64,000 nucleotides of DNA, taken from assembly GCA_016283755.1 (NCBI GenBank), contig JAEENO010000018.1:1-64000 (forward strand), read 5' to 3'. The stretch's first letter is position 1. Every line of letters starts with the position of its first letter. Under the pieces are notes generated by a model. The model had not been told where the DNA came from and made no database searches. It worked only from the letters and a program-made list of their open reading frames with translations. The position numbers and the translations under genes were made by a program. Source of the DNA: Lachnospiraceae bacterium. Lineage in GTDB: Bacteria; Bacillota; Clostridia; Lachnospirales; Lachnospiraceae. Positions 3,814 through 46,060 of the stretch are shown one piece after another.

Positions 3814-3841
3814 TGCGGCGGCAATTTGCCGCCGCATTTTT
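3814..3841 (+). terminator. Rho-independent terminator after korC
   Basis: TGCGGCGGC-aattt-GCCGCCGCA followed by TTTTT. Confidence 0.85.
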
Positions 3842-3850
3842 CACATGCAG

Positions 3851-3921
3851 CTAGGTGGCACATAAGTGCCGGAACCTTGCTGCCACGACGCACCGCGCCA
3901 TAGGCGCATTACATGTGCGTC
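3851..3921 (+). repeat. Two-hairpin repeat module, copy A
   Basis: AGGTGGCAC-ataa-GTGCCggaACCT then GACGCAC-c-GCGCC-ata-GGCGC-attacat-GTGCGTC; second copy at 22810-22881. Confidence 0.75.
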
Positions 3922-3942
3922 TTCCAAGACAAAGGAGATAAT

Positions 3943-9829: not shown

Positions 9830-9869
9830 CAATTCTGCTGTGACATGAGAGCTATGAAACGAAAGGTTG

Positions 9870-10033
9870 CTGCTACATGTTAAGAAGAAGCATATAGCGG
9901 GTTTTTTCGTGGAGCGAGTCATGTAAGAAACTGGCGACAAGTCACTGTACTTCATTAGAACGTCTACTATAGGTAGAAACAACGTGTGAAAGTCTTCGAC
10001 ACACACGGGAGAGTGTACAGTCACCGCTTGTCG
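9870..10033 (+). promoter_or_regulatory. Structured S10-operon leader RNA (candidate r-protein autoregulatory leader)
   Basis: Terminator-like hairpin CTGCTAcATG/CATaTAGCGG + GTTTTTT, then multibranch structure closed by GACAAG/CTTGTC and ACTGTAC/GTACAGT with two inner hairpins. Confidence 0.6.
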
Positions 10034-22691: not shown

Positions 22692-22805
22692 ATGAAAGTA
22701 AGAACTTCAGTAAAACCAATTTGCGAAAAGTGCAAAGTTATTAAGAGAAAAGGTTCTATCAGAATTATCTGCGAGAATCCTAAGCATAAGCAGAGACAGG
22801 GTTAG
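22692..22805 (+). CDS. rpmJ: 50S ribosomal protein L36
   Basis: Manual translation [37 protein letters not shown]; too short for ORF track. Confidence 0.97.
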
Positions 22806-22809
22806 CAGC

Positions 22810-22881
22810 AAGGTGGCACGAAGTGCCGGAACCTTACTGCCGTGATGCGCTCATCGCCGCAGGCGATTCCGTATGCGCATC
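22810..22881 (+). repeat. Two-hairpin repeat module, copy B
   Basis: AAGGTGGCAC-gaa-GTGCCggaACCTT then GATGCGC-tc-ATCGCC-gca-GGCGAT-tccgtat-GCGCATC; pairs with copy A. Confidence 0.75.
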
Positions 22882-23166
22882 CGCCCGTCACAAGCCGTAA
22901 CTAATCGGTTTGCAGACGGAAGCTGACTCGATTATGCATCATTATTATGTGCGGCTGCCGATTGTAAGTATCTATGCAATCGGTTCATAATAGACGGCGT
23001 GAATTGCCGGCTTACAAAAGCTTAATACCGAGAGCTTTTATAAGCGCATATTCGATTACGATAGCTTTGACTTACACACATTTCAGGCCGGGCAACCGGA
23101 GCTGTAAGGGGAAGCATATCGCGTATTACAATGATTTTTTAGATTAATGTGGAGGTGTAAATACAC

Positions 23167-45865: not shown

Positions 45866-45918
45866 TGTATGAAAAAGTACTTTAACTTTGATTGATATTA
45901 TGCTACAATACTTCCGTA

Positions 45919-46040
45919 ATCTTTGGGGCAGGTGTGATTCCTGACCGGTGGTAACAGTCCACGAACCTTGATGAAGCCAGTAGTCAGGGCCGATGCGGTG
46001 TGATTCCGCAACCGACGGTATAGTCCGGATGGGAAAAGAT
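45919..46040 (+). ncRNA. FMN riboswitch (RFN element)
   Basis: ATCTTTggGGCAGGTGTGATTCCTGACCGGTGGTAACAGTCCACGA...AGTCAGGGCCGATGCGGTGTGATTCCGCAACCGACGGTATAGTCCGGATGGGAAAAGAT. Confidence 0.95.
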
Positions 46041-46060
46041 GGTTACATTTAATATTTAAC

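Follow-up and report, generated by a model that had tools for sequence, protein, structure and literature searches.

What is the two-hairpin module that stands twice between genes in this 64,000-nucleotide stretch of a Lachnospiraceae genome (the whole of it hereafter called the window; genome G000), and do its hairpins matter as RNA or as DNA? The first-pass annotation had left both an RNA motif and a REP/MITE-like element open. In our reading the module is probably a non-coding, interspersed REP/MITE-like repeat of about 80 bp with two bulged hairpins, which has been repeatedly inserted and lost between genes in the genus, whose hairpins matter as DNA and whose copies are mostly passengers.

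The module itself is real: a mechanical two-hairpin descriptor matched the 64 kb exactly twice, at copies A and B, and three shuffled windows not at all. Its places had been given correctly, but the limits proposed at first (3851-3921 and 22810-22881) are too narrow, the hairpins spanning 3847-3921 and 22805-22881. In copy A, on the + strand, the first hairpin (HP1) occupies 3847-3883 (GCAGC-AGGT-GGCAC paired with GTGCC-gga-ACCT-GCTGC), its GCAGC arm thus beginning four bases earlier than had been thought; a CAC linker (3884-3886) leads to the second hairpin (HP2, 3887-3921), whose end is as first given and which consists of the stem GACGCAC/GTGCGTC, the inner hairpin GCGCC-ATA-GGCGC and the 7-nt 3' bulge ATTACAT. 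Copy B, also on the + strand, adjoins the rpmJ stop as had been noted, but its first base is the final G of the TAG codon itself: HP1, with one C/A mismatch, lies at 22805-22840 and, after a CGT linker, HP2 at 22844-22881 (GATGCGC/GCGCATC, inner ATCGCC-GCA-GGCGAT, bulge TCCGTAT). The architecture common to both is an HP1 of lower stem, 3' GGA bulge and 5-bp tip, a 3-nt linker, and an HP2 of 7-bp lower stem, inner 5-6 bp hairpin and 7-nt 3' bulge. Fold z-scores against dinucleotide shuffles were -4.8 and -3.0 on the + strand and -3.9 and -4.0 on the - strand. According to two covariance models (R1 and R2, below) and the conservation of the flanks, the whole of copy A runs from 3845 to 3925 (+), with conserved ends AT (3845-3846) and TTCC (3922-3925). 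The plan of the element is therefore AT, HP1, CAC, HP2, TTCC; outside AT...TTCC conservation drops in the flanks of 14 copies compared, one of which (own_C41) had been anchored wrongly on the 3' side. At some sites a candidate third hairpin beyond HP2 was noticed by eye. The intrinsic terminator after korC (3814-3842, +) is a neighbour of copy A outside the element; a hairpin also occupies its position in the congeners G001 and G004, the latter lacking the element there. It alone has the G+C hairpin followed by a U run that marks an intrinsic terminator, which the element has not.

Copies were counted from model and pattern searches together with inspection of individual loci. The covariance model built from copies A and B (R1), a search that the first-pass annotation had called for, raised the number of strong copies in the same genome to three, with one weak copy besides, and showed that three of the six congeners carry the element too. 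A seven-copy model (R2), with an HP2 pattern search, added more, and an HP2-only model (R3) matched eight places in G000 (two each on contigs C9, C24 and C41, one each on C25 and C35), besides which a diverged two-hairpin copy lies between the C25 copy and rnpB. R3 also gave several matches each in G001, G003 and G004, the weakest of them doubtful, only a weak one in G002 and none in G005 or G006. The totals are about nine copies in the genome of the window, and two to six in three congeners, while in G002, G005 and G006 nothing rose above noise. Across the Lachnospiraceae, bacteria of gut and rumen, R3 matched 39 of 397 genomes at E<=0.01, in many of them by the hairpin tip alone. Two-hairpin relatives occur among these matches, for example in G316 and G215 and, with a different HP1, in G175; other matches belong to multi-copy elements in which the HP2 tip CCAT-NNNN-GNA-nnnn-ATTTTAAATGG is the one part in common, many of them bounded by TAACTGTTCA/TGAACAGTTA-like repeats, and their homology to the window element is less certain. 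At least one further match (L088) resembles coding sequence and seems due to chance. The wider set has in common the HP2 tip CAT-NNNN-GNA-nnnn-ATTTTAAATG, with lower stems that differ in sequence and stay complementary; any tie to the TAACTGTTCA-bounded elements would run through this tip only. In those elements, of about 130-150 nt, TAACTGTTCA/TGAACAGTTA-like inverted repeats enclose two internal hairpins with the tip CCATCGCCGNAGGCGATTTTAAATGG (L059, L060, L090, L091, L097, L100-L103 and L105, at about 1390-1640), and several genera hold some ten or more per genome. A pattern scan of contigs matched only two rumen Lachnospiraceae MAGs, apparently G001 and G004, while two patterns run on viral contigs and a distant blastn search against phages and plasmids gave no match. 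That no family could be recognised for the module holds for the covariance models of Rfam 15 as well: when the window, the module by itself, the leader of rpsM and the relatives were scanned, the module received no match at gathering score.

The sites of these copies (gene names outside the window were assigned by reading translations) are intergenic and unrelated to one another. They include tRNA spacers (Asn-Cys, Asn-Glu, Gly/Pro, Arg-His, Asp-Val, Val-Leu and Ser-Ser), a stable-RNA site upstream of rnpB in G000, G001 and G003, and protein-gene sites between an NlpC-like gene and apt in G004, at gyrB/gyrA, a pilin-like gene and a transporter gene in G274, at argB/argD in G316 and after prfA in G175. 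Some are common to more than one species, and the copies are few, both of which speak against the preferred reading. Almost every site open to comparison has orthologues that lack the element. The korC/CoA-transferase site of copy A is filled in G000 and G001 and empty in G002, G004 and G006; the rpmJ/rpsM site of copy B is filled in G000 and G004, and empty in G005, G006, G008, G013 and G274, while in G001 and G003 only a single hairpin resembling HP1 stands there. In G000 itself an antisense copy occupies one 23S-tRNA-Asn spacer, the paralogue of that spacer being empty; in G003 the same spacer is empty in operon I and holds, in operon II, a copy oriented opposite to that of G000. Truncated copies, and copies standing side by side, occur in the Asn-Cys and Asn-Glu spacers, as on C24 of G000, where a shortened copy stands beside a diverged full one between tRNA-Asn and tRNA-Cys (L008, 590-830). 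No target-site duplication was seen at the sites compared, but around the junction several bases of the empty sites are different, and no exact junction could be defined. This pattern of filled and empty sites points to insertion and loss rather than to a fixed leader of particular genes. The element has dispersed by independent insertions, and the REP/MITE-like half of the original suggestion is thereby supported, with further copies in the same genome, in congeners and in other genera.

The copies also differ by two-sided changes that preserve pairing. Between A and B, the replacement in hairpin 2 of a C-G by a T-A pair and of an A-T by a G-C pair had been read correctly, whereas the change seen in the inner stem depends on the alignment: CGCC/GGCG is common to both copies, though the outer pairs do differ and B is one pair longer. 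Among seven full copies, 95.5% of the cells are paired and six of the 22 pairs have changed on both sides. A count of covariation gave 12 cells with two-sided change against 4.5 in shuffles, a value reached by none of the 500 shuffles, although p-values for pairing are indicative only since the copies share ancestry; in controls with the structure slid along the alignment there were 0-3 such cells and pairing fell to 26-41%. In 14 HP2s the outer and the inner pairs are Watson-Crick throughout, in a hand alignment that is biased towards pairing. Of the two outcomes that had been named as speaking against the idea, the lack of any additional copy and the presence of additional ones with broken pairs, neither turned up.

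Such covariation, together with the stable folds, is what one would expect of a structured regulatory or small RNA (riboswitch, leader or sRNA) on the + strand, yet this reading is already largely refuted and we consider it highly improbable. A cis-regulatory RNA keeps a fixed strand and a constant class of downstream gene, whereas the element occurs in both orientations relative to transcription beside unrelated genes, lacks any Rfam match and is absent from orthologous sites. Moreover, G-U pairs make up only 18 of 512 element pairs (3.5%, in RNA minimum-free-energy folds of 19 copies), against 11.4% in 15 tRNAs and 14.2% in two RNase P RNAs of the same genomes, and they are depleted equally on both strands. 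GNA triloops account for 20 of 25 triloops, the middle base being variable, and such loops make mini-hairpins of DNA extraordinarily stable (Hirao 1994 and Yoshizawa 1997, as cited in PMC6479982). The scarcity of G-U and the GNA triloops favour hairpins kept at the DNA level over an RNA regulator. Compensatory change alone is no proof of selection on RNA, because template switching between the arms of a DNA quasi-palindrome yields the same pattern (as outlined in PMC7202029 and PMC8604942). Template switching of this kind during replication could even account for the matched arms entirely, as a mutational by-product rather than a result of selection on structure: nearly all pairs are Watson-Crick, whole arms have been replaced between copies (GCAGC/GCTGC, GTAAT/ATTAC, AAGAAG/CTTCTT), the loops are of the DNA-stable type, and the mechanism has been described for E. 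coli and yeast (in the accounts of PMC7202029 and PMC3820800). It should, however, erase bulges, yet the GGA bulge of HP1 and the 7-nt bulge of HP2 are retained in most copies (GGA being lost in several), and the CAC linker, the AT/TTCC ends and the GNA loops are conserved too. Their persistence indicates that template-switch correction is not the whole story, and we regard it as a sole cause with some reserve, as a serious candidate that is somewhat doubtful. For those who interpret such alignments, the caution is that compensatory changes can mark DNA palindromes and not regulatory RNA.

The most interesting unexplained feature of the element is its orientation. At independent protein-gene sites all eight copies (counted by hand) are in the sense direction and HP1 mostly adjoins the upstream stop codon; at independent stable-RNA sites nine of ten are antisense, HP1 standing mostly shortly ahead of the 5' end of the mature RNA, and the one exception is the sense copy in the 23S-tRNA spacer of G003. 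The split gives a Fisher one-sided value of 2e-4 and a two-sided one of 4e-4 (0.015, two-sided, for the first 12 sites), for a rule that was noticed post hoc. It suggests that the copies are not neutral passengers everywhere. They may have been exapted in operons and kept since their hairpins act in transcripts, those in sense after a stop codon protecting or processing mRNA between cistrons and those in antisense forming a leader just ahead of pre-tRNA or pre-RNase P RNA, with orientation set by selection after insertion. Both the split and the positions of HP1 would fit this, as would a promoter-like TTGACG-17-TATAAT sequence, found by eye, that precedes the element at the Asn-Cys spacer; the post hoc nature of the rule, its exception in G003 and the element-free orthologues speak against it, and we think it rather unlikely. 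At about the same level of doubt, one may speculate that bipartite DNA-hairpin repeats with GNA triloops are spread family-wide by an unknown recombinase other than Y1 or RAYT, with an orientation set by gene class either through a target rule (single strands exposed by transcription) or through double exaptation, in mRNA and in stable-RNA processing. If family-wide, these repeats would offer a test case for the spread of palindromic repeats without an obvious transposase, their stems being hypervariable yet matched, their tip conserved and their orientation subject to a rule.

Among known systems, the GTAG REPs, REPINs and BIMEs, mobilised by RAYT (TnpA-REP), are likewise short, bulged, intergenic palindromes, often beside stop codons, dispersed and with lineage-specific stems (PMC3733652, PMC3116915). 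Our element differs in its few copies, in its two unlike hairpins in fixed head-to-tail order, in the lack of a RAYT within the genus and in the tag: no GTAG or GTGG stands 0-2 nt 5' of a hairpin, the bases there being AT or TA before HP1 and, on the other strand, GGAA before HP2. The CGTC REPs, including the Rickettsia RPE, are also palindromic repeats without a known transposase, but have an unpaired CGTC tag, simple 8-9 bp stems and 4-5 nt loops (PMC3733652), whereas the CGTC of our element is paired inside the HP2 stem, its stems are composite and bulged and its tips are mostly triloops. MITEs with terminal inverted repeats resemble it as short non-coding mobile elements of intergenic space; here the AT-HP1 and HP2-TTCC ends are not inverted copies of each other, and the TAACTGTTCA-bounded relatives of other genera come closer to that plan. 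A RAYT-like Y1 transposase of G274 (L038, 1200-2250) is flanked by GGGGACGGTC-type palindromes; as these are a different repeat, it was rejected as the enzyme of our element. A GGGACGGTTC palindrome, similar to the GGGGACGGTC type, adjoins the korC-site copy of G001 just upstream of it (L009). IS200/IS605-derived PATE-like elements have two subterminal bulged hairpins and no inverted ends, a plan that fits the handling of single-stranded DNA. That the module is such a remnant, the ends of an IS200/IS605-type element reduced to two subterminal hairpins, would agree with its bulged hairpins, with the lack of inverted ends and with no target duplication having been seen. Yet neither a Y1 transposase nor a full-length parent with matching ends was found for it: Y1 (PF01797) is absent from the seven congeneric genomes G000-G006 (G000 being 99% complete, though MAG assemblies can lose repeats and may miss multi-copy elements), and HP2 does not flank the Y1 genes of other Lachnospiraceae genera, except for one weak overlapping match. 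An R3 match at a tnpA fragment (L133) was not counted as an insertion, the surrounding reading frame not being judgeable. We hold an IS200/IS605 origin to be unlikely. Two RNA-regulator readings, a T-box-like one of AGGTGGCAC and a CsrA-like one of GGA, were dropped as well, sites and strands being inconsistent and the GGA bulge being lost in several copies.

Under the preferred reading, that of an interspersed repeat whose hairpins matter as DNA, the hairpins would act, or have acted, in single-stranded DNA, where a putative trans-acting enzyme would have recognised them, once folded, for copying; either selection on the hairpin or correction through template switching may then keep the arms matched. 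Present copies would mostly be passengers whose hairpins are transcribed within operons, possibly with a slight influence on the 3' ends of mRNAs or on the leaders of pre-tRNA and pre-RNase P RNA. Apparently this is an undescribed variant of interspersed palindromic repeats, within the open-access literature and databases searched: there, nothing relevant was found on a described Lachnospiraceae palindromic repeat or on the tip sequences as text, and the REP survey names no Firmicutes or Clostridia (PMC3733652).

Other RNA features of the window lie apart from the element. Between rpmJ and rpsM, at 22944-23166, stands a conserved structured leader with the alpha-operon genes rpsM-rpsK-rpsD downstream; it was found in G000, G001 and G003-G006, has covarying helices (among them CCGATTG/CAATCGG, CCGCTTAT/ATAAGCGG and CCAATGG/CCATTGG) and has no Rfam match even at E<=1. 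It is possibly a ribosomal-protein autoregulatory leader, a candidate for binding S4 or S13. The known RNAs recognised by the Rfam scan are an S10-Clostridia ribosomal protein leader and an FMN riboswitch (window 9846-9940 and 45915-46044).
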